From contig NZ_JAFLNC010000005.1 of NCBI RefSeq assembly GCF_017313765.1, positions 186,001-250,000 on the forward strand: a stretch of 64,000 bases of DNA, given 5' to 3'. The stretch's first letter is position 1; every line of letters starts with the position of its first letter. A program made the translations under genes and the position numbers. The notes beneath the pieces are model-generated. The model was not told where the DNA came from, ran no database searches, and saw only the letters and a program-made list of their open reading frames with translations. Shown here piece by piece: positions 3,297-15,073 of the stretch. This DNA comes from Sneathiella sedimenti (GTDB lineage: Bacteria > Pseudomonadota > Alphaproteobacteria > Sneathiellales > Sneathiellaceae).

Positions 3297-5096
3297 TCAG
3301 GCTCCCTCTGGCAAGCCGGCTAGCTGGAGTGCCCCAAGGACCAGTTCAAGGGAATCTGGGTTCCTGATAGGCAGTGCTTTTCTATATTTAGTAACCGTTG
3401 CTTCTGGTGACATCGCTAAAATTTTCCTGGCCGCAACTCGGGCTTCTGACAAGCGATCAAGCTGGGTGTAGGCTGCAATCAACACCCAGTAGGTCGAGTC
3501 CCATTCCGAGTTGAGGGCAAGAGAGCGCTCAGCCAATTCAGCGGCGAGATCAGCGCGATCGTTGAAAAGGTGAGCTACTGCCGAAACAGTCAGATGGCTA
3601 AAGAAATTGGGGTCCATCGGGCCGAGTGCCCTTGCTCGCTCCAAAAGACGCAATCCGGCCTCTGAATCATCGCCGAATACAAGAGCACAGCCGGCCATTG
3701 CATTTACAAAACCTGATCCTGGATTAAGTTTAACCGAGCGACGGACAGCATCCAGCCCAGTCGCGTAGTCCTGTTTCAACATCACGAGCGTAAAGCCCCC
3801 AAGCACGATACTCACCGCGTCGTCTGTCTCGGCAGTGAGCGCTCGGCGGGCCATCGAGATTGCAGTGACTAAATCATCGCTGCCGTAAGGTGGCCAGGGT
3901 CGACTGATCCGTTGCACAAAGCACCAGGCTGCATGTGCAAGAGCCGGTCCGTAAGACGGGTCAAGATCAATAGCATGAATGAGTAAATCAAGCGCTATCC
4001 GGTTTTCATCAGGACGTATGGCATAAATATGGGGGAGCGCCTGAAGATAAAGATCGTAAGCATCTAGATTGCCGGCTGATTTGCGTCGTGAGCGTTCGAT
4101 CTCTGCCTTGCGTACCGTCGGTTCAATCGCTCCGATCACATTGTCAGTAATTCTGTCCTGAAGATCAAACACATCTTCCAACTCACCGTCAAAGCGGTCT
4201 GCCCACAGGTGAGCGCCTGAGGTAGCATCAATTAACTGTCCGGTAATACGCAACCGGTTCCCTGCCTTACGTACGCTGCCTTCTAACACGTAGCGTACAC
4301 CAAGCTCACGACCGACCTGCTTTATATCCACAGCCCGGCCCTTGTAAACAAAGCTCGAATTTCGGGCGATAACGAAGAGCTGGTTAAAGCGTGACAGCGC
4401 CGTGATGATATCCTCAACCATACCGTCAACAAAGTATTCTTGCTCGTTATCCCCAGACATGTTCGTAAACGGTAGAACGGCAATCGAGGCTTTTTCGGAC
4501 GTACTATGGTTGGTGGCCTTTTCTGTCTGCAAAACGAGTTGTTCCGCCGACTTATCCTTCATAGGCAGCTCATTGCCAACCGCCAGCGAATAGATCCGGA
4601 TGGGTTCTGCAATATTTTTGAGAGTCGTTTCGCCGAGGTCCGTAACAGACAGATTGATCTTTGCTCTTACTTGGCGATATGCGTCCTCTGATAGGCAGAC
4701 TGCGCCAGGTTTGGCAACCCCTTCCAAACGTGCCGCAATATTAACGCCGTCACCCATCAAATCGCCATCGCTCTGTTCAATTACATCTCCGAGATGGATG
4801 CCTATGCGAAGCACGAGGGTGTGCTCCTCCTGCAAACCGCCGTTGTGCTCGATCATTGCTTCCTGCACGTCAATTGCACAGCGCACAGCATCAACCACAC
4901 TTAGGAATTCGACTAAGACACCATCTCCCGTTCGCTTGAACACACGTCCATTATGGGCGGTTATGTTTGGATCAACCAGATGATCAAGCACTGTCCGTAA
5001 ACGCGCCAGTGTGCCTTCTTCGTCAGCCCCCATGAGGCGGCTGAACCCGACTACGTCTGCGGCGAATATTGCTGCTAGCTTCCTTCGTTCAGTCAT
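3297..5096 (-). CDS. Class III adenylate/guanylate cyclase with TolB-like and TPR domains
   Basis: 599 residues from the chosen start. The N-terminal ~170 residues are a class III nucleotide cyclase domain with the two metal-binding aspartates D14 (IFAADVVGFSRL) and D58 (KRTGDGVLVEF). A linker leads to a TolB-like segment (SIAVLPFTNMSGDNEQEYFVDG, DIITALSRF, YVLEGSVRK, GAHLWADRFD), then TPR-type helices to the end. This architecture is common in alphaproteobacteria; the C-terminal part probably senses or scaffolds. It is cytoplasmic, with no membrane segment. The frame continues upstream inside the sulfotransferase gene, but the MTERRKLAAIFAADVVGFS start at 5096 fits the family. The preceding gene stops 7 bp upstream, indicating an operon. 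Confidence 0.85.
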   Translation of the reverse strand: MTERRKLAAIFAADVVGFSRLMGADEEGTLARLRTVLDHLVDPNITAHNGRVFKRTGDGVLVEFLSVVDAVRCAIDVQEAMIEHNGGLQEEHTLVLRIGIHLGDVIEQSDGDLMGDGVNIAARLEGVAKPGAVCLSEDAYRQVRAKINLSVTDLGETTLKNIAEPIRIYSLAVGNELPMKDKSAEQLVLQTEKATNHSTSEKASIAVLPFTNMSGDNEQEYFVDGMVEDIITALSRFNQLFVIARNSSFVYKGRAVDIKQVGRELGVRYVLEGSVRKAGNRLRITGQLIDATSGAHLWADRFDGELEDVFDLQDRITDNVIGAIEPTVRKAEIERSRRKSAGNLDAYDLYLQALPHIYAIRPDENRIALDLLIHAIDLDPSYGPALAHAAWCFVQRISRPWPPYGSDDLVTAISMARRALTAETDDAVSIVLGGFTLVMLKQDYATGLDAVRRSVKLNPGSGFVNAMAGCALVFGDDSEAGLRLLERARALGPMDPNFFSHLTVSAVAHLFNDRADLAAELAERSLALNSEWDSTYWVLIAAYTQLDRLSEARVAARKILAMSPEATVTKYRKALPIRNPDSLELVLGALQLAGLPEGA

Positions 5097-5103
5097 GTCT
5101 GAT

Positions 5104-5727
5104 TCAGATCTTGCCAGATACGCGATCCCAAAACTCTGCACGATCATTGGTGCGTGGAAAAAGATCATCGGGAACAGGAACATCCAGAAAGTCACAGAGA
5201 GGTTTCCAACCATCTTTAACCTGATAGACAAGAAGTTGATCGGCGGGAATCCTTGCTACGACTGCCTCATTATGAGCGATGAACGCTTCCCTCAAATCTG
5301 CTTCACTAAGTCCAGAAGGAAATCCTGTTTTACCAATAACCTCGCTGGTCATATCAAGCCACTCCTGTAATTCCTCGGGGGCCTGATCCCGTTCGGCAAG
5401 CAATCGGTAAATCGTCTGTGAAAAGCTTTGCGCCCAACTTTCCGGGGTGCGATGCGTCAGGATGAACTTAGCTGTTGGATAGGTCGCGTACAATTCCCGA
5501 AAAAATCCAGCGGTGGGCCAATCGACGGCACTTTCATATCCCTCATAAATTGCCATCCAATCAGGAGCGCCTTTGGCAGCTGCCGACCATAGCGGCACTT
5601 GCACAGATAGATTGTGGAGCACTTCTTCCATGTGATGGCAAGGCCCCAGCCCAATCTGATTTATCGCGAGCTTAAGGGAATAGGTTCCTGTTCTGCCTAC
5701 GCCGACGCCGATGACATTTATTGGCAT
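5104..5727 (-). CDS. Sulfotransferase family protein
   Basis: 207 residues. The N-terminal loop INVIGVGVGRTGTYSL (residues 3-18) is the PAPS 5'-phosphosulfate-binding type of P-loop, and FILTHRTPESWAQSF fits the 3'-phosphate-binding strand. The rest matches the short bacterial/eukaryotic 'Sulfotransfer_4' type (CDFLDVPVPDDLFPRTND near the end). The acceptor is unknown. The start at 5727 is chosen for the strong GGAGGG site 7-12 nt upstream; an in-frame ATG at 5775 is less likely. It lies directly upstream of the cyclase gene with a 7-bp gap, so the two are likely co-expressed. Confidence 0.8.
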   Translation of the reverse strand: MPINVIGVGVGRTGTYSLKLAINQIGLGPCHHMEEVLHNLSVQVPLWSAAAKGAPDWMAIYEGYESAVDWPTAGFFRELYATYPTAKFILTHRTPESWAQSFSQTIYRLLAERDQAPEELQEWLDMTSEVIGKTGFPSGLSEADLREAFIAHNEAVVARIPADQLLVYQVKDGWKPLCDFLDVPVPDDLFPRTNDRAEFWDRVSGKI

Positions 5728-6286
5728 ATTGACCCTCCAAGAAATATTGGCAAGTACAAAGGACGCGTAAAACATTTAACAACTTAATCAACACTGCCCC
5801 AACAAGGAAAAACTGGCAACGGAAAAGGACTGCCCCAGATGGAAAGTGCACAATAAAACGACGATTGATTGACCTATACACCTCAAGCGGATTGGAAGGT
5901 CTACTGGAGAATCTGCAAACAAAGCATTATGCTTTCAGCATGCTTTACCTGATCGGTGCTATTCTTTCTGGGGCCTTTGCTGCATTTAAGCACGCTACGA
6001 TTTCGAGGGTTTGCTTGCCGGTATCCTTGCTTTGCTGTTGGCAAGTGATCAAGATAATCTCGCTGATACACATGTAATTTCAATTCATCTGCGCTTGGTC
6101 ACAAGCAAACATTTGTGTTCGTTGAAGATAGTATCCGCTATTTGTTCAAATACTGTCTCCAACTTTCTGTGCAATAGTCATGTCGTTTCTGAAAGTATTG
6201 CACCGACGACGCTTGCAGCAAGTATTGCCTTTTCAACTTCGCAGGTTCATTATCTATGCAAATTAAAAGCAGGTAGGTTGATCGGT
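5728..6286. other. Divergent intergenic region with a possible frameshifted remnant
   Basis: About 560 bp between the minus-strand sulfotransferase and the plus-strand binding-protein gene. It must hold both promoters. At 5940-6060 two overlapping plus frames join into a hydrophobic stretch (MLYLIGAILSGAFAAFKHAT, then EGLLAGILALLLASDQDN) if the frame slips near 6000. This could be a decayed two-helix membrane protein. Nothing else is recognised. Confidence 0.3.
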
Positions 6287-7294
6287 ATGATAAGACGCTC
6301 ACTATTTGTGCCTTTTTTAGTTTTTATTGCCTTACTATTAGGTTCTGTGACAAATGGATACGCCGCAAGCAAGCTAATTTATGTGGCACTTTGGCGTGGA
6401 TGCGAAGAAGTTTGCAACGGATTTCAAGACTATGTCTCAGAAAAAGGTCTGGACACCGAACTTGTCCTCCGTGATGCAGCGCAAGATAAAACCAAGCTCC
6501 CCGGTTTTCTGAAAGAAGCCCGCGAGATGAAGGCGGATTTAATTCTGTCGTGGGGAACTTCCGTGACGCTTGGTATCGCGGGTACGCTTGAAGACCAAGA
6601 CAGTCCGAAGTTTAACAATGATATTCCTCAGGTATTTACAGTCGTAGCCGATCCGGTCGGCGCTCGCATTATTGAAAGCCTGGTAAATACGGGGCGACGG
6701 AATATTACGGGTACATTTAACCGTGTTCCTGAAGTGGTCAATATCAATACAATCCGATCCTATAAACCCACGTTTAAGCGTCTTGGGCTTCTCTATAATA
6801 CAAATGAGCCAAACTCATTACAAAAGCGCGATGAAATAATGGCCCTGTCAAAAGCGCTGGATTTTGATTTGGTCGCCCTTGAGTTAAAATTAGGAAATGA
6901 CGGGTACCCGCAAGTAGACGACATTCAGAAAAAAGTGGTCGAACTAAAAGACAGGGGGGTCGATTTCATTTATCTTGGCTCAAGCTCTTTTCTCCGTAAG
7001 AACGGCGCAGCTTTCACGGGGGCGGCCGTCGAAAATGGCATTCCTGTCCTAAGCCCTTATGAAAATCTGGTTCGGAAATCCGATGCACTGCTCTCAATAG
7101 CAGCTCGTTATTATGACCTTGGAAAACTGGCGGGCGAACAGGCAGAAAAGATATTGATGGATAACAAAATACCCGGAGATATTCCGGTACTTCAAATGAC
7201 TGATTTTGCCTATGTCATAAATATGAAAGTTGCTCAGAAACTCAATCTGTATCCGCCTGTTGAGATTCTTCAGTTCGCTGAGACTGTGAACTGA
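6287..7294 (+). CDS. Orphan ABC-type periplasmic substrate-binding protein (ABC_sub_bind/TrpX-like)
   Basis: 335 residues with an N-terminal signal peptide (RRSLFVPFLVFIALLLGSVTNGYAA). The mature part matches the ABC_sub_bind fold: LIYVALWRGCEEVCNGFQDYV, ADLILSWGTSVTLG, VFTVVADPVGARIIESL, FKRLGLLYNTNEPNS, GVDFIYLGSSSFLR, GIPVLSPYENLVR and a closing ILQMTDFAYVINMKVAQKL-type segment. Ligands in this family are varied (for example aromatic amino acids), so none is assigned. The start at 6287 is chosen because a signal peptide follows directly; the frame is open farther upstream. No permease or ATPase gene is in the window. Its 3' end overlaps the convergent sensor-transporter gene by 53 bp, suggesting a functional pair. 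Confidence 0.82.
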   Translation: MIRRSLFVPFLVFIALLLGSVTNGYAASKLIYVALWRGCEEVCNGFQDYVSEKGLDTELVLRDAAQDKTKLPGFLKEAREMKADLILSWGTSVTLGIAGTLEDQDSPKFNNDIPQVFTVVADPVGARIIESLVNTGRRNITGTFNRVPEVVNINTIRSYKPTFKRLGLLYNTNEPNSLQKRDEIMALSKALDFDLVALELKLGNDGYPQVDDIQKKVVELKDRGVDFIYLGSSSFLRKNGAAFTGAAVENGIPVLSPYENLVRKSDALLSIAARYYDLGKLAGEQAEKILMDNKIPGDIPVLQMTDFAYVINMKVAQKLNLYPPVEILQFAETVN

Positions 7295-10163
7295 AGAAAT
7301 TGCTATAGAATGTTAGCGCAAATGCTGCCGCGCCTGTAATCACTATGACCACAATTGCCGCAATCGCATTCAAATACCCGACATAGCTGGATAAAAACGC
7401 GATCAGAAGTAATCCGACAATACTTCCCAACCTCTCAAAAGCGCGCAGAGAAGCCAGCACTATGTCCGAGTCCAAATGAACTAGGTCCCGCTCTGCAATC
7501 TCCAACGCGGCAGCGACTTGGGGATCCCGAATTAGGCCATGGGAAATACCGGCTCCAGCGACGGCGACAAGGATGGACCACTGTGCGGGCCAGATAACGA
7601 CGGCGCACAAACTGACTGCCGATAACACCGCCCCCAAAAGGCCGACCTGAGAAGGATTCAGTTTTCGTTCAAGGAAATGGGGGGCGGCGGGCCCAACAAA
7701 TACGATCGCCAGAAAATAGGTCATCAAAATGCGGCTGGTATCGGCAGTGGAAGCGCCAAGGGCGTTAAGTTCCAGAGCCACAAGGAATGAGATGAAAGCC
7801 TGGAGAAGAATATTAGCTGGCACAGCAATCCCGAACACGAGCGCCGCGAATTGTGGGTTGCCAAGTGGCCGCCAAATGGGGGGTAAATAGGAAGTGTGCG
7901 CAATGGGTGCGGAGACATTTTTGCCAGTGTATGTTGGGAGTAACCTGTAGGTGAGGGTGCCTGAAAGCAGGACCAACCCGGCACTGACTACAAAAACCGA
8001 AGGTTGCCCAAGCCGGTCTGCTAGTATTCCACCTAACGCGGTTCCGGCGAAAATGCCACTGAACAATGCAGCGGTAAACAAACCCAGCGAGCGGTTCCTA
8101 TCTTTTTTTGGAACTGCTCTAAGGACATAATCTTGGCAAGCCATTACTGCAAAAGCATATCCCAGGCCTGTGACCATACGGAACACTACAATTTCTGTAA
8201 CGTCGGTAGAAGCGTAAAGCCCTATATGAGCTAACAATGTGGGTGCCGCTGCATATAGCAACAACTTGCGATGCCCGAATTTCCCTGTCAGAGGGCGCAC
8301 CAATAACGAACCGACAACGATCGCAATCAGATATCCAGCTATCGGTAAACTGATGACAATGCCTGTATCCAGCCAAGGCAGAGAATTGTTGGCGGCTCTG
8401 GTAAAAATAGGAAGAAATGCTATGGGCAACTGATCCGCCGCTGCAAACAGAAACAGCGGTAGCCGCACATCGTTCAAGTAAGAAAACTTTAACTGGGTAG
8501 GCCATCCATGACGGAGTTTGAAGCGGTCACCGAGTTTTTCGAGCGATATCAGTTCACTGTTATTGGACTGGTGCGATGTGGCAGCGGTGAAAGCCCGGTG
8601 AAGCCGCATGGCATGTTCTGACAATTTGTTGTTAAGGCGATCGATGGCGGTCAAACCTTTAGCGACTATCACGCTGGAAAAATCGCCCGCTGCTTGAAGC
8701 CCCGCCAAATATTGAAGCTGCAGGAAGGGGGCTGTCAATGAACGGCTCATAACCACTGTTATGATCTGGAACGCCAGCAACATAACGACAAGGACCACTA
8801 CGCCAAAATCCAGCAACATATCCCTGAATTGAAGGGCAAAGTAATCGGGATTAATATCGACAATAATGTAACCGATTTGATTTCCGTCAGCGATAATTGG
8901 AAAAGTTGGTACATCCTTTCGCGACTGAGCCGGTGCAAAAATGTAATTTTGCCGTGTTCCCGCCTCATAGACGATGCGGCCAGTCGCGACTCCAAAGTAA
9001 GACACTTCCGGAAAATGCTTCAATAGTTCGCTGAAATAGTTTTCCGCACCGACGAGATTTGTCAGAGGAACTCCGGCATTAACCGCGCGCTGAATGTTCC
9101 TGTTAGCGACGGCACCTATCACCTTCGTACGCGCGGCTAATTCCGGCTCCAGCGAACGCGTTACTTCGTTATGGGCATATAGCCCCAATACTAATGCTGA
9201 TCCCAATATGATCGCGGCGGACCATGGGGAGAGGCTGCGGGCAAATACATTTGCCAACGCCGTTTCGGGGGCCGGTGCAATTGCGGTTTCAAGCGACGCA
9301 GTATTCTCTTGTCCGACATCGGCAACCTTTTGATTGTGGTTCGAGAATTCTGATATTATCCGACGGACGCTTTTAAATTTTCGGAAAGCCGCGTCTAGCT
9401 TCGATTCAAGCTCTACTATCTCACTACTTAAAAATCCGTCATCAGCAATGAAAGGAGCTTTGGTCTCCGCCAGGCGGCTATTTTTTTGGTCTTCACTATA
9501 CTCGTCTGATAACCGTTCCAGCTTTTCCAGCCCGTGCATTGCGCTTCCAAGTTTTATGCGCAGCATCAAGAGAGCAAGAAGCGAAAACACAACAAAGATA
9601 ACCGCCGCAGCCGAGGCTATCTGAAAAGACATAGTCCGAGATTTTTCCTTAAAATCGGTATTGGCAGCGGACACGAGAATACCGCCGATCCTGTCCCCTT
9701 GAAGATTCCGGAGGGTAAGCCCAGCCTGTAGCTCACTATCGTTTTCGGTATCCCAGCGATCATCCGCACTCAAGGACTGCACTATAAGAGTATCTTTGGC
9801 AATTGGTTCGCGCCCGTTGGCGATGGTGCTATGCACAATTATTCCGGTCGGGTTAAATACCTGAATAGAGGTAACCGCGGGATCAATATCTTCAGCCCAA
9901 GCCAAAACCTCCTTGGCGTTGCGAACGCTCGCTATAGGTAAACCGAGGTTGATCACCGAACGAAATGATGAGGCTGTTGTCTCAGCTACAACGGCGAGCC
10001 GTTCCTGTATCAATCTCGATAAAACCGTTTCATATTGCAGGATTGAAAGTACGGCCAGTATACTGAGAGTGGTTGCCAAAACAGCTATGAATGCGGTCCA
10101 ATTCCTCCAGAGCATCGACATCCAAGAAATTTCCCTTTTCCCTAATCCTGCTGAATATTTCAT
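7242..10163 (-). CDS. Fusion of two membrane sensor modules with an MFS transporter
   Basis: 973 residues. Module 1: TM at ~20-42, periplasmic sensor ~43-178, TM ~179-202, then a charged coiled linker ~203-310. Module 2: TM ~311-330, periplasmic sensor ~331-450, TM ~451-472, and a HAMP-like stretch ~473-525. The two periplasmic parts share a pattern (A..GxPL/I..L/V...., then a V..I/F.V strand), as in Cache-type sensors of kinases and chemoreceptors. From ~565 to 953 follows a 12-TM major facilitator, with a loop-2/3-like GKFGHRKLLL and a TALGGILADRLGQP repeat signature. There is no kinase or cyclase output domain, so sensing is probably coupled directly to transport. It faces the orphan binding-protein gene and overlaps its end. 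Confidence 0.8.
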   Translation of the reverse strand: MKYSAGLGKREISWMSMLWRNWTAFIAVLATTLSILAVLSILQYETVLSRLIQERLAVVAETTASSFRSVINLGLPIASVRNAKEVLAWAEDIDPAVTSIQVFNPTGIIVHSTIANGREPIAKDTLIVQSLSADDRWDTENDSELQAGLTLRNLQGDRIGGILVSAANTDFKEKSRTMSFQIASAAAVIFVVFSLLALLMLRIKLGSAMHGLEKLERLSDEYSEDQKNSRLAETKAPFIADDGFLSSEIVELESKLDAAFRKFKSVRRIISEFSNHNQKVADVGQENTASLETAIAPAPETALANVFARSLSPWSAAIILGSALVLGLYAHNEVTRSLEPELAARTKVIGAVANRNIQRAVNAGVPLTNLVGAENYFSELLKHFPEVSYFGVATGRIVYEAGTRQNYIFAPAQSRKDVPTFPIIADGNQIGYIIVDINPDYFALQFRDMLLDFGVVVLVVMLLAFQIITVVMSRSLTAPFLQLQYLAGLQAAGDFSSVIVAKGLTAIDRLNNKLSEHAMRLHRAFTAATSHQSNNSELISLEKLGDRFKLRHGWPTQLKFSYLNDVRLPLFLFAAADQLPIAFLPIFTRAANNSLPWLDTGIVISLPIAGYLIAIVVGSLLVRPLTGKFGHRKLLLYAAAPTLLAHIGLYASTDVTEIVVFRMVTGLGYAFAVMACQDYVLRAVPKKDRNRSLGLFTAALFSGIFAGTALGGILADRLGQPSVFVVSAGLVLLSGTLTYRLLPTYTGKNVSAPIAHTSYLPPIWRPLGNPQFAALVFGIAVPANILLQAFISFLVALELNALGASTADTSRILMTYFLAIVFVGPAAPHFLERKLNPSQVGLLGAVLSAVSLCAVVIWPAQWSILVAVAGAGISHGLIRDPQVAAALEIAERDLVHLDSDIVLASLRAFERLGSIVGLLLIAFLSSYVGYLNAIAAIVVIVITGAAAFALTFYSNFFSSQSQRTEESQQADTD

Positions 10164-10597: not shown

Positions 10598-10987
10598 TCA
10601 CCCCGACATTCCACTGATGATTGGGCAGTCAGGGCGATTATCTCCATTACAGCTGTCTGCAAGATGCGTTAGCTCTTGGTGAAGGGACCGTAGTTCCAGT
10701 AATTTTTCTTCAATCTCCGCAATCCGGTGCAGGGCTATGGCCTTGACGTCTCGACTTGAGCGGTCCTTGTCTTCATATAAGCCCAATAGCTCCCGGCATT
10801 CTTGCACGGAGAACCCAAAGCTTCTGGCCCGCCGGGTGAAGATAAGTTTGTTTATTTCCTTGCCGCTGTATAGACGGTAGCCGTTAGTCGATCGGCCGCT
10901 CGGTATAACGAGGCCAATATCAGCATAATAGCGGACAGTTTTCGTTGGTAAGTTCGTTGCTTTTGCAACGTCACCGATTGTGTACAT
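10598..10987 (-). CDS. cueR: Cu(I)-responsive MerR-family regulator CueR
   Basis: 129 residues: an N-terminal winged-helix DNA-binding domain (MYTIGDVAKATNLPTKTVRYY, wing GYRLYS), a dimerisation helix (~80-112), and a C-terminal metal loop with C113 and C121 in the CNGDNRPDCPI motif. Two cysteines seven residues apart, together with Ser77 in place of the cysteine found in divalent-metal sensors, mark the monovalent Cu/Ag/Au group. It is divergent from the DUF4396 and cytochrome genes, and the operator lies between them, starting 12 bp from its own start codon. It is expected to bend that 19-bp-spacer promoter into an active form when Cu(I) is bound. Confidence 0.92.
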   Translation of the reverse strand: MYTIGDVAKATNLPTKTVRYYADIGLVIPSGRSTNGYRLYSGKEINKLIFTRRARSFGFSVQECRELLGLYEDKDRSSRDVKAIALHRIAEIEEKLLELRSLHQELTHLADSCNGDNRPDCPIISGMSG

Positions 10988-10993
10988 TTTCCC

Positions 10994-11024
10994 TTGACCT
11001 TCCAGTTACTGGAAGCATTACAAA
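10994..11024 (+). promoter_or_regulatory. CueR-type promoter/operator
   Basis: A -35 hexamer TTGACC (10994-10999) and a -10 TACAAA (11019-11024) are separated by 19 bp, the over-long spacing typical of MerR-family promoters. Within the spacer, CTTCCAG (10999-11005) and CTGGAAG (11009-11015) form a perfect 7-bp inverted repeat around TTA, closely matching known CueR operators. It reads toward the DUF4396 gene. Confidence 0.88.
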
Positions 11025-11065
11025 TCCGGTCATTGGAGTCAATTCACTTTATTTGAGAGGATAAA

Positions 11066-11512
11066 ATGAGTATCGCAGAAACTGTTATTGGAATTAGCTG
11101 GACCTGCCGACACACCTGGCGTCGTGCTTCGGTCAATACTTTATGGTGCCTAGTGGGTTGTTCGATCGGTGATATGGGAACTATCCTGTTCTTTCAGGTT
11201 ACGGGTATCCCGTGGCCGACCATGGCAATTATGGCTTTGGCAATTGTCAACGGACTGTTGACGTCCATAGCGCTGGAGACGATTATTTTATCTCGGCAGA
11301 TGATTTTCAAACTAGCGTTTAAAACAGCCATAGGCATGTCCTTGATTTCGATGATATCAATGGAAGTTGCCATGAACTATATTGATTATCTGTTTACCGG
11401 AGGCGCCAGACTGACCCTGTGGGTTCTGCCTTTGATGTGGTTTGCCGGGTTTATTACACCACTGCCCTACAATTACTGGCGCTTGAAAGCATTAGGCAAG
11501 GCCTGTCACTGA
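11066..11512 (+). CDS. DUF4396 domain membrane protein
   Basis: 148 residues with about four hydrophobic segments (WCLVGCSIGDMGTILFF; MAIMALAIVNGLLTSIALETIIL; FKTAIGMSLISMISMEVAMNYI; LWVLPLMWFAGFITPLPYNYW). The RHTWRRASVNTLWCLVGCSIGD opening and the PLPYNYWRLKALGKACH ending fit DUF4396. Function is not established; members commonly sit near copper-resistance genes. Position directly behind the CueR operator makes it a predicted copper-induced gene. Cys, Met and His residues in or beside the helices (for example C and M in helices 1 and 3, H148) could bind copper, which is inference. The cytochrome gene follows after 10 bp. Confidence 0.78.
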   Translation: MSIAETVIGISWTCRHTWRRASVNTLWCLVGCSIGDMGTILFFQVTGIPWPTMAIMALAIVNGLLTSIALETIILSRQMIFKLAFKTAIGMSLISMISMEVAMNYIDYLFTGGARLTLWVLPLMWFAGFITPLPYNYWRLKALGKACH

Positions 11513-11522
11513 AGATGGATAA

Positions 11523-11948
11523 ATGAAGCGACCGAATAGTAAATTATATGTTATCACTCTGGTCTTGGCCTTGGTCGCGGTAGCTGGCTATTTCTGGCTA
11601 TATCCTGGCCAACCAGAGGTAAAGACGGGACAGCCAATTGTTGTCGTCAACGTTCCCGAGTTGTCGATTGCCTCTCAGTCCGGCAAACAGGCTTTCGATA
11701 AATATTGCGCCTCCTGTCACGGCAGTAATGCGGCCGGGCAGGAGGGCAGGGCGCCACCGCTCATTCATCGGATATATGAGCCCAATCATCATGGTGATAT
11801 GGCTTTTTTACTGGCCGCTAAAAATGGTGTGCGGGCGCATCATTGGCCTTTCGGTAATATGCCGCCAGTGGAAGGCATATCCGAAGCGGAAATTCAGAAT
11901 ATCATTCTTTACGTTCGAGAGTTACAGCGCGCGAATGGGATAAATTAA
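11523..11948 (+). CDS. Membrane-anchored c-type cytochrome
   Basis: 141 residues. An N-terminal membrane anchor (YVITLVLALVAVAGYFWLY, about 9-27) is followed by a periplasmic mono-haem domain with the CASCH haem motif (C62, C65, H66) and a likely distal methionine in FGNMPPVEGISEAEIQNIILYVREL. The size and the SEAEIQNIILYVRELQ end are typical of small class I cytochromes tied to copper oxidases and copper tolerance. It is 10 bp downstream of the DUF4396 gene and so probably under the same CueR promoter. Confidence 0.85.
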   Translation: MKRPNSKLYVITLVLALVAVAGYFWLYPGQPEVKTGQPIVVVNVPELSIASQSGKQAFDKYCASCHGSNAAGQEGRAPPLIHRIYEPNHHGDMAFLLAAKNGVRAHHWPFGNMPPVEGISEAEIQNIILYVRELQRANGIN

Positions 11949-12069
11949 ACCCAACAAAACCCAGCACTATAATATGTATTCTAGGCATGACGATTCCCTA
12001 GTTGGGGCATATCTCTGGAGAGAGCCTTATGCTCCCCCCAGAATCGGTAAAAATCCGTCATACGACGTA

Positions 12070-12795
12070 TTAGAACATTAGCTTGGCACCGATTACGGCA
12101 TACCAAATATCCGCACTTTCACCCTCTGCTTCGACGTAATTTGCGGTCTGCCCGAACTTACGCTCGTAGACGACACCAACGTAAGGCGAGAGAATTCTAT
12201 CCCAGACGTCATAGCTGAGCCTTAGGCCTGCCTCTACACTGTTAATACCGGAGCCGACTCCAATTTCCCGATCACTCGAAAAGGCCGCATCGATATTTGC
12301 GGAAGGCGTCAAGGTCAGATAGTTGGTTAGCAAAATCTCGTACTCGATATCGAGATCGGCAGAAAGCTTCCCTTTTTCACTCAGGAACAGATGCGTATCG
12401 ACCTCTATCCACTGCGGAGCCAGCCCACTCAGGCCAACCACAGCATACCATCGGTCGGGCCCTTGCGGACTCGAATATCGAACGCCCCCTTTAATGTCCC
12501 AAAAATCCGATATGGGTGTTTGCAAGGCAAGCTGATTGGAAAGGGATTCAAAGCGATTAACATTCAAATCCAACTCACCGCTGCCTTCCCAACGGAGTTT
12601 CAGTTCATCGGTCCCGATGAAGGCATCACCATCAAAGGCGAACAGTTTTTCTCCGCCTTCTCCGTATCGATATTCAAATTCCTCCATCTGAACGCCATAG
12701 TAAATATTCGACGTCTCCATCGCGTGGCCGGCGACGGGCATCAAAAGAGACAGGCTAAAAGCGGTCGTCAGAAGAGGTTTCTTCAATTCAATCAT
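12070..12795 (-). CDS. copB: Copper resistance protein B (outer membrane)
   Basis: 241 residues with a signal peptide (KKPLLTTAFSLSLLMPVAGHA) and a CopB-family body: an N-terminal YYGVQMEEFEYRYGEGGEKLFAFDGDAFIGTDELKLRWEG region, alternating amphipathic strands and a C-terminal aromatic residue (GAKLMF), as in outer membrane beta-barrels. The Met/His-rich N-terminal extension present in many CopB proteins is absent. Its ATG overlaps the copA stop in an ATGA arrangement, so translation is probably coupled. It is the last gene of the cop operon. Confidence 0.88.
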   Translation of the reverse strand: MIELKKPLLTTAFSLSLLMPVAGHAMETSNIYYGVQMEEFEYRYGEGGEKLFAFDGDAFIGTDELKLRWEGSGELDLNVNRFESLSNQLALQTPISDFWDIKGGVRYSSPQGPDRWYAVVGLSGLAPQWIEVDTHLFLSEKGKLSADLDIEYEILLTNYLTLTPSANIDAAFSSDREIGVGSGINSVEAGLRLSYDVWDRILSPYVGVVYERKFGQTANYVEAEGESADIWYAVIGAKLMF

Positions 12796-14452
12796 TGCAG
12801 TTCTCCCTTATCCAAAGGGTTAAGACTTGCGGATTTCGGGCCACCTTCAACGACTATCTTCCGGAACATTCCAGCATCCATGTGAAAGGATAGGTGGCAA
12901 TGGAACGCCCACTGACCAGGCGCATCAACCTCGGTTTCGGAATAAACGGTTGTTCCGGGCGCGACGCTGATTGTGTGCTTTGCCGGATCCCATTTACCGG
13001 CACCGACATCCAAAATGCTCCACATACCATGCAGGTGCATTGGGTGGGTCATCATGGTTTCATTGACGAACTTAAACCGGACACGCTCTCCATACTGAAG
13101 GACAATCGGATCTGCATCCTCATATTTTACGCCATTGATCGACCAGATATAACGTTCCATATTCCCGGTCAGGCGCAACTCAATCTCCCGCGTGGCCTCC
13201 CGGTCGTCATAGAGTGGCTTCTGTGCTTTCAAATCCGCATAGGAAAGGAATTTGCCACCATTTGCCGCTGTGGGAACTAGACCGCTGCCATTTGCATAGA
13301 AGCTATCCTTCTCCTGCTCCATACCCATCATGTTTGAATGATCCATTCCTTTCATGTTGGAATGGTCCATTCCTTTCATGTTGGAGTGGTCCATCCCCAT
13401 ATCTGCCATAGTCAGAAGCGGCGCCTTTGACATGTCCGGGATGTCAGCTACCATACCTTCGCGCGGGGCAAGTGTTCCCCGTGCATAGGCTGTCCTTCCC
13501 ATGCTTGCCCCGAAAATCGTATAGGCCTTATCGTCCATGGGCCGGACGATAACGTCATAGGTTTCAGCAACGCCCAAACGAAGTTCGTCGACTGTAACGG
13601 GCTGTACATTGTTTCCGTCAGCCGCAACCACTGTCATCTTCAATCCCGGGATACGGACATCAAAATAGGTCATGGCTGAGGAATTGATGAGCCGCAGGCG
13701 GATGCGTTCTTTTGGCTCGAACAACCCGGTCCAGTTCTGTTCGGGGCCCTTGCCATTGATAAGCGGTGTGAAGCCCTGTACGTCTTCAATGTCTGTCTTC
13801 ATCATCCGCATGTCACCCCAGGCCATCCGGTCATCGATAGTTGCTTTCAGGCCGTTCTTGCTGACATCTGAAAAGAAATCCCCGATGGTTTGTTGCTGGC
13901 GATTGTAATAATCCGCCGACATTTTCAAGTTCCGAAAAATTCGCTTGCCGGAATGCGGATGGGTGTCCGTAAACTGAACAACATAATCCTTGTCGAAACG
14001 AAACGGATCTCGCTTCTCTGGCTCGATAACAATTGATCCGTAAGCGCCATCAGGCTCCTGAAAACCGGAATGGCTATGGAACCAGTAGGTTCCGGATTGG
14101 ATAATCGGAAATTTATAGGTGAAGGTTTCACCTGGTGCGATTCCGGGGTAACTGATTTTTGGCACACCATCCATCTGGAAGGGGAGGATAAGACCGTGCC
14201 AGTGAATTGACGTCGATTCATCGAGATTATTTGTCACATTGATCGTGACATCTTCGCCTTCCTTGAACCGGAGTACGGGTCCAGGGGATTTTCCGTTATA
14301 ACCGATCCCTTCTTTTTGGAAGTCGCTGTATCAATGGTAACCCTGTCCACCGTCAAATCATAGATTCCGGCAACACTCATACTTGGTAGAATTGCGATGC
14401 TTGCAGCTGCCATAAAGCCGATCTGCAGAGATTGCATAAATGATTTTCTCAT
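12792..14452 (-). pseudogene. copA: Multicopper oxidase CopA, interrupted by a frameshift
   Basis: Two frames together encode one CopA. The first (14452 to about 14313) gives a signal peptide (MRKSFMQSLQIGFMAAASIAIL) and YDLTVDRVTIDTATSKK. The second gives GIGYNGKSPGPVLRFKEGEDV and continues through HWHG, WFHSHSGFQEPDG, the Met/His repeats, HPMHLHG and the HCHLSFHMDAGM copper ligands to the stop at 12792. The shift lies at a run of five A on the coding strand (14313-14317); one more A restores S-K-K-E-G-I-G-Y-N-G. All copper-binding motifs are downstream and intact. It could be a real mutation, a homopolymer sequencing error, or -1 slippage on an AAAAAG-type site. Alone, the second frame would lack the signal peptide. 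Confidence 0.85.
13329..13400 (-). repeat. Three 24-bp tandem repeats in copA encoding Met/His motif
   Basis: Three consecutive 24-bp units (13329-13352, 13353-13376, 13377-13400) encode the octapeptide MDHSNMKG with small changes. Such MDHSxM repeats are known periplasmic Cu(I) ligands in CopA. The near-identity of the units suggests that copy number can change by slippage. Confidence 0.85.
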
Positions 14453-14515
14453 TCTGCTGTTCCTTTTGATTTAGAATAGTTGAAATACGCAGCCACAGAG
14501 GGCTGCGCAGAGCAT

Positions 14516-15073
14516 TTACTCAAAATGAACTTCCCCCATCATGCCGGAGGCATAATGACCGGGAACATTGCAGGCGAATTCCAATTCGGCATCGTCCGTA
14601 AACTTCCAGACAATTTCCGCTGTTTCCTTGGGCTCCAACAGCACACTGTTTGGATCGTTATGTTCCATGGTTTTGCCATTTCCCATATCCATCTTCATCA
14701 TGTCCCGATTGATCTTATCCACTTCCAATACACCATGTTCTACCATCATAATCATTTCTTCCTGATGCGCGGCATGCATGGAGGCTGTCCCGATATTGAA
14801 TTCATGAACGAATTCCCCGGTATTGATGATCTTGAAACGAACCGTTTCACCTTTCTTGATGGAAATCTCTTCCGGTTCGTAAAAATTATCTCCCATCTTG
14901 ATCTCGATGGTTCGAGTAACATCTGCGGCGTTACCGGGGATGCCAATGCCCGATTTCTCGCCGTGACTCCCGTGATGATTCCCTGCCGCAAATGCAATCG
15001 CTGAGCTTAGTGCCAAGACGGCAGTGAGAGTTGCTCCGGCAACACCGGATAAAAAAGTACGCTTAATCTTCAT
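14516..15073 (-). CDS. copI: Periplasmic cupredoxin-like copper-binding protein (CopI-like)
   Basis: 185 residues. A signal peptide (MKIKRTFLSGVAGATLTAVLALSSAIAFA) is followed by a short His-rich stretch (GNHHGSHGEK) and a cupredoxin domain beginning IEIKMGDNFYEPEEISIKKGETVRF. Type 1 copper ligands are visible: H in EFVHEFNIG, and C, H and M in FACNVPGHYASGMMGEV. An insertion rich in Met and His (MHAAHQEEMIMMVEHG ... MMKMDMGNGKTMEHND) fits copper-handling members. It is the gene just before copA in the operon; the stop-to-start gap is about 63 bp. Confidence 0.85.
   Translation of the reverse strand: MKIKRTFLSGVAGATLTAVLALSSAIAFAAGNHHGSHGEKSGIGIPGNAADVTRTIEIKMGDNFYEPEEISIKKGETVRFKIINTGEFVHEFNIGTASMHAAHQEEMIMMVEHGVLEVDKINRDMMKMDMGNGKTMEHNDPNSVLLEPKETAEIVWKFTDDAELEFACNVPGHYASGMMGEVHFE

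Follow-up and report, generated by a model that had tools for sequence, protein, structure and literature searches.

Membrane transporters are usually controlled through their expression or by cytoplasmic regulators. Periplasmic substrate-binding proteins (SBPs) are coupled to receptors in LuxP-LuxQ, TorT-TorS and NspS-MbaA; in LuxP-LuxQ, for example, the binding protein docks on paired periplasmic domains. A 2018 review distinguishes three SBP-dependent transporter families, ATP-binding cassette (ABC), tripartite ATP-independent periplasmic (TRAP) and tripartite tricarboxylate transporters (TTT) (PMC5812351), and a 2022 survey gives the same three (PMC9602780). Here we analyzed a locus within 64,000 nucleotides of the Sneathiella sedimenti genome (NZ_JAFLNC010000005.1, positions 186,001-250,000; this whole stretch is referred to as the window), where one gene fuses two sensor modules, A and B, to a carrier of the major facilitator superfamily (MFS) and overlaps a dedicated SBP gene. 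Together with its relatives, which almost always have the SBP gene alongside, the locus suggests a transporter of a so far undescribed kind, controlled by a receptor or dependent on an SBP. Our best reading, to which we assign slightly better than an even chance, is that of an SBP-coupled MFS transporter gated by Cache and HAMP-like domains.

The fusion gene (7242-10163) is an open frame of 973 residues on the minus strand, opposite a stop-rich plus strand. A first-pass annotation made from the sequence alone had proposed this continuous protein, and the frame is indeed real. Because homologues begin at a position aligned with window Met15 ('MSMLW' / 'MSILW') and GGGAAA lies upstream of this codon, translation likely starts at position 10121, giving a product of 959 residues; the numbering below counts from the first ATG. 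A full-length AlphaFold2 model computed from a 35-sequence alignment (mean pLDDT 87.6, pTM 0.84), with which a separate model of residues 1-552 agreed, reproduced the architecture that had been read from the letters, namely two transmembrane (TM)-periplasmic-TM modules followed by a 12-TM carrier. In the sensor A half, a long TM helix (residues 9-71) leads to a periplasmic alpha/beta fold (residues ~72-167; 9663-9950, minus strand), a second TM helix (169-204) and a linker (residues ~205-300; 9264-9551, minus strand) with a helix at 246-274 and a low-confidence joint at 284-289. This linker falls at the position of the A/B gene boundary in relatives with separate genes. The sensor B half comprises a TM helix (302-362), the periplasmic fold (residues ~363-438; 8850-9077, minus strand), a TM helix (440-491) and, within a segment that connects it to the carrier (residues ~474-547; 8523-8744, minus strand), the helices 506-530 and 535-547. 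The MFS domain itself spans residues ~564-955 (7299-8474, minus strand), with modelled helices covering 564-972. By Pfam and NCBIfam, the protein lacks an output domain of the kinase, cyclase or chemoreceptor kind, as the first-pass annotation had noted.

Pfam recognised the MFS domain (PF07690) alone in the window protein. The expected Cache and HAMP domains went unmatched there, and family-wide scans, profiles and structural models were needed to recognise the sensors. A Foldseek search of the PDB with the model of residues 1-552 had WalK, CitA and DcuS among its matches, along with further extracytoplasmic PAS/Cache domains, which bears out the sensor-like nature claimed for the N-terminal half; the three top-ranked entries, long integrative models that superposed poorly, were disregarded. 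Models and Foldseek matches thus place both periplasmic domains in the Cache/PDC class, with its TM-(PAS-like alpha/beta)-TM fold. Among homologues, sensor A gave weak dCache_1 matches (14 of 38) and sensor B gave sCache_3_2 matches (4 of 35). The proposed paralogy of the two sensors held in a profile-profile comparison (probability 98.1, E 8e-14, 194 columns), and both contain the common block that the first-pass annotation had described ('LGLPIASVRNAKEVL...VTSIQVF' / 'AGVPLTNLVGAENYF...VSYFGVA'); in sensor A, the AlphaFold2 strands include E97-103...E158-167. Such paralogy would be expected of a sensor dimer. For the segment between sensor B and the carrier, which had been read as HAMP-like, the two helices within 506-547, WalK/BaeS model matches within residues 391-531 and matches of the HAMP profile PF00672 to two of 35 homologues (E down to 1.7e-9) favour this assignment, but the window protein itself is not matched by the profile, and for this reason we retain the term 'HAMP-like'.

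The carrier belongs to the MFS, with a PF07690 (MFS_1) match at E 3.3e-27 and a 12-TM fold; it matches MFS profiles alone, whereas TRAP or TTT membership would call for DctQM or TctAB together with DctP/TctC. Foldseek aligned it with VMAT2, NorA and MdfA (target TM-score about 0.8 for VMAT2/NorA), and its nearest solved chains by sequence are EmrB and YajR. Like the DHA1 transporters VMAT2, NorA, MdfA and YajR, it has the 12-TM core with a TM1 acid, a TM4 arginine and a glycine-rich TM5 motif, but those proteins have no Cache or HAMP-like modules. We know of no dedicated SBP for a DHA1-type MFS transporter. Across the family the TM1 acid D577 (94%) and the TM4 arginine R662 (91%) are kept, Q677, R811, R907 and R911 are family-wide (100%), E910 reaches 97%, and G707/G711 are conserved; in the window protein the motif A acid is replaced by Gly627. 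Judged by these retained motifs, the MFS domain looks alive as a transporter. It is probably proton-coupled.

The SBP gene (6287-7294, plus strand) encodes 335 residues with a signal-peptide-like N-terminus and matches PF04392 (E 1e-24). It converges on the fusion gene with a tail-to-tail overlap of 53 bp (7242-7294). The first-pass annotation of the fusion gene had overlooked this partner. It is the sole PF04392 gene of a genome rated 100% complete. Family SBPs form a separate subfamily of PF04392 and are the best-conserved part of the system (mean pairwise identity 47-49%; the MFS reaches 39-42% and the sensors 33-40%). In most of them the first helix contains GCExxC (GCEEVC near residues 39-43 in the window SBP), a motif absent from the solved ABC-type relatives in the alignment and possibly a disulfide or metal site. 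PF06541 is the usual permease partner of PF04392 SBPs. A profile search of the window genome found no PF06541 permease, and no ABC permease or ATPase genes lie at the window locus. The window SBP shares its family with the ABC amino-acid importers of the TrpX/CD0873 type, but these use an ABC permease and ATPase, and the locus does not qualify as a TrpXYZ-type importer. The three relatives with solved structures (3lft, 6hni and 3lkv) have Trp, Tyr and Phe as ligands (PMC6816091), which makes aromatic or other amino acids no more than an initial guess at the ligand of the window SBP; the CD0873 selectivity positions Glu263 and Tyr279 apparently correspond to Tyr and Tyr in alignments read by eye, which is too little to name a ligand.

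To place the locus among its relatives, we built a tree of 80 loci drawn from a genome scan, a 399-genome sample of the phylum, relatives and plasmids. The commonest layout is an operon of A (the first sensor, about 260-280 residues), B (second sensor and MFS together, about 660-710 residues) and the SBP gene. The typical unit is therefore one of three proteins, of which the window shows an A-B fusion. An SBP gene lies nearby in 77 of the 80 loci and directly downstream in 75; by strand, 73 are downstream on the same strand, two are downstream and convergent (the window and L035, where the overlap is 4 bp) and two are upstream. The remaining three are two Kiloniella loci and L063, which ends near a contig edge. 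Members are mainly Alpha- and Gammaproteobacteria, with two delta-type metagenome-assembled genomes (MAGs) and one Acidobacteriota MAG in addition; among 24 other genomes of the window genus searched, two have a clear homologue. For three very divergent B matches (L115-L117), the adjoining SBPs are weakly similar.

The first-pass annotation had suggested counting homologues with the same order, and A and B proved to be fused in 23 of the 80 loci. The window clade (18 rows, full support) contains 17 of fused type, and the closest homologues (46-48% identity) are fused as in the window. The tree requires six state changes, which we read as at least five A-B fusions and one split within Mesorhizobium (L036); the number of changes does not by itself tell whether fusion was gained or lost, and this quick tree is unsure in its deep branches. 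Recurrent fusion, at least five separate times on this reading, is consistent with the parts forming one complex.

The SBP link also held in the reverse direction. When the 399 genomes were scanned with a profile of the family SBPs, nine SBPs scored 278-488 bits and the next best 123 bits; the profile includes SBPs from some of the same genomes, for which high scores are expected. All nine adjoin an independently found B gene, and it is informative that no high-scoring SBP was seen away from one in this sample. Equally informative are the lower-scoring SBPs with flanks read: L132-L135, L140, L142-L145 and, in Kiloniella, L121/L122 have permease- and ATPase-like sequences beside them, and L141 adjoins a sensor-like protein, these flanks having been identified by reading translations and not by profile search. 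As a control, 23 other MFS loci of the relatives had neither a family SBP nor a sensor A within 1.5 kb. We conclude that the family comes with a dedicated PF04392 SBP and, since the linkage holds at 77 of 80 loci and in all nine reciprocal cases, that a periplasmic signal or substrate most likely arrives on it.

We propose that the fusion gene encodes the membrane half of a three-part system composed of the SBP, the Cache-type sensor pair A/B and the MFS carrier joined to B by the HAMP-like segment. The SBP, ligand-loaded or empty, would most likely dock on the paired A/B periplasmic domains, by analogy with LuxP and TorT on their receptors; two unequal Cache modules, repeatedly fused in one chain, could form such a docking pair. 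The TM/HAMP-like bundle would then move and switch the attached MFS domain on or off, and the SBP ligand may be either what is transported or a signal closely related to it. LuxP-LuxQ, TorT-TorS and NspS-MbaA likewise set a periplasmic SBP beside a TM-sensor-TM protein, but their output is a kinase or cyclase, whereas here it is an MFS domain. The SLC5/STAC histidine kinases CbrA and CrbS (PMC9100948) also carry a transporter and signalling parts on one chain, but there the transporter is fused to a kinase, whereas in the window protein the sensors precede the transporter and no kinase is present.

Four observations weigh against this SBP-coupled, sensor-gated transporter. The window protein itself has no PF00672 match; the second TM1 acid is Gln578 and not Glu; and the MFS resembles exporters, while binding proteins usually serve import, which makes the direction of transport ambiguous. 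In addition, the two Kiloniella genomes keep the fused protein with the family SBP missing and generic ones of ~100 bits only, so the SBP is not strictly obligatory. The main rival, which we regard as rather unlikely, is a TRAP-like secondary transporter whose SBP picks up the substrate and passes it on to the MFS carrier, the Cache modules being a docking platform with no regulatory role. An SBP in a genome with no ABC permease of the usual type would fit this, as would its standing as the best-conserved component and the pairing of the dedicated subfamily with MFS genes, in contrast to the ABC permease and ATPase genes beside more distant relatives; the three-part layout, moreover, parallels DctP-DctQ-DctM, also often fused (PMC5812351). 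Yet the kinship of the carrier with exporter-type DHA1 proteins and the Kiloniella proteins that persist with no family SBP argue against such a handover, and Cache folds and a HAMP-like linker are signalling parts. To our knowledge, neither Cache nor HAMP-like parts occur in TRAP or TTT systems.

In a transceptor reading, the MFS domain has become a receptor or relay whose output is another system, such as neighbouring type VI secretion machinery, and not solute flux. The 27 loci with VgrG, ImpA_N/TssA or DUF6931 genes no more than about 6 kb away and the SpoIIE-type phosphatase neighbours of eight loci suggest such a role, but the MFS transport residues are kept, the fusion protein has no downstream signalling domain, the window genome has no TssK and none of the 27 loci belongs to the fused clade of the window; we consider this reading improbable. 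More improbable still is that the Cache domains of a sensor-gated MFS bind the ligand themselves and the SBP is an unrelated neighbour. Cache domains commonly bind small molecules directly and Kiloniella lacks the family SBP, but the near-constant and reciprocal SBP linkage speaks against a chance neighbour, and it survives the change of orientation in the window and L035. The annotation's simplest reading, a transporter set directly by periplasmic ligands, is upheld in part: with sensor-like residues 1-550 and the MFS residues kept, periplasmic control is the natural reading, but stand-alone direct sensing is disfavoured by the SBP. An artefact, whether chance fusion, frameshift or assembly error, has a negligible probability. 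A and B are indeed separate, often overlapping genes in most relatives, but fused loci recur in many genomes, 17 of 18 rows of a fully supported clade among them, the closest homologues are fused alike and the structure model is of high confidence. An erroneous joining of sensor and MFS halves, raised at the outset, is ruled out by 23 loci of the fused type, with five or more independent fusion events; the family members examined have sensor B on one chain with the MFS, and A alone is often encoded separately.

By membership, the protein is an MFS member of a new variant type. Whether the family amounts to a further SBP-dependent transporter class beside ABC, TRAP and TTT, with an MFS fold and an SBP that acts by way of a paired Cache/HAMP-like receptor forming one machine with the carrier to which it is fused, is a proposal that we hold to be evenly balanced. 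TRAP and TTT systems resemble it in combining an SBP, a small membrane subunit and a 12-TM carrier, and their membrane subunits too have been fused repeatedly, but they carry DctM/TctA, DctQ/TctB and DctP/TctC, whereas this family has an MFS carrier, Cache sensors and a PF04392 SBP. Our search of the open-access literature, with subscription papers and transporter databases outside its scope, found no description of a sensor-MFS-SBP system. If true, the proposed mechanism would represent direct control of a transporter by a receptor that forms part of the carrier itself, and SBP dependence would then reach the MFS, the largest superfamily of secondary transporters. Relatives in Azospirillum, Vibrio, Mesorhizobium and Pseudomonas species make it testable in cultivable strains, and the frequent proximity to type VI secretion genes poses a separate testable question.

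Several loci depart from the common layout. In Mesorhizobium loti (L036:4982-7965), A and B are encoded in two frames that overlap, although the rest of the clade is fused, which reflects either a recent split or a sequence error. Two tandem SBP genes follow the fused gene in L039:7945-10105 and L043:7791-10107, and a stop-containing remnant precedes the SBP in the L038 genome. A second A/B-like pair lies upstream of the operon in L057:1182-3145 and L063:559-2549; the B-like partner of this pair (406 residues) terminates with a few hydrophobic helices and is not matched by Pfam. Downstream of the SBP, L058:9121-11208 and L104:9003-11141 encode a protein of ~700 residues, apparently with two sensor modules and many hydrophobic helices, for which Pfam gave no match in L058.

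The tree sister of the window is L035, a gammaproteobacterial MAG with 54% identity over the B part. Near the fusion/SBP pair, both loci contain a class III cyclase-TPR gene overlapped by a Sulfotransfer_4 gene (window 3297-5775; L035:694-3245; 40% and 44% identity, respectively) in the same order, with the pair inverted as a block, which suggests that the block is shared and possibly transferred. The 27 loci near type VI secretion genes come from Vibrio, Marinomonas, Oceanospirillum, Rhodobacterales and others (including L031, L061, L062, L066-L077, L083, L085, L087, L099, L101 and L103), and 21 of them have two or more such genes; for the window copy, we rejected a role in type VI secretion, its genome having no TssK. 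The SpoIIE-type phosphatase genes, which have HAMP-like parts, adjoin the operon in L057, L058, L060, L063, L064, L088, L104 and L109. At the window locus, PADLOC matched no defence system, and promoter and terminator scans stayed at shuffle level. Beside the fusion gene (10598-15073) lie genes for a MerR-type regulator, DUF4396, cytochrome c, a multicopper oxidase and a cupredoxin, probably a copper-handling cluster; no copper genes stand beside the other loci read, and the association is probably local. In L034:2586-10920, the operon is flanked by a DAO/GCV_T oxidoreductase and a thiamine pyrophosphate enzyme that by eye resembles sulfoacetaldehyde acetyltransferase, a possible hint at the substrate.

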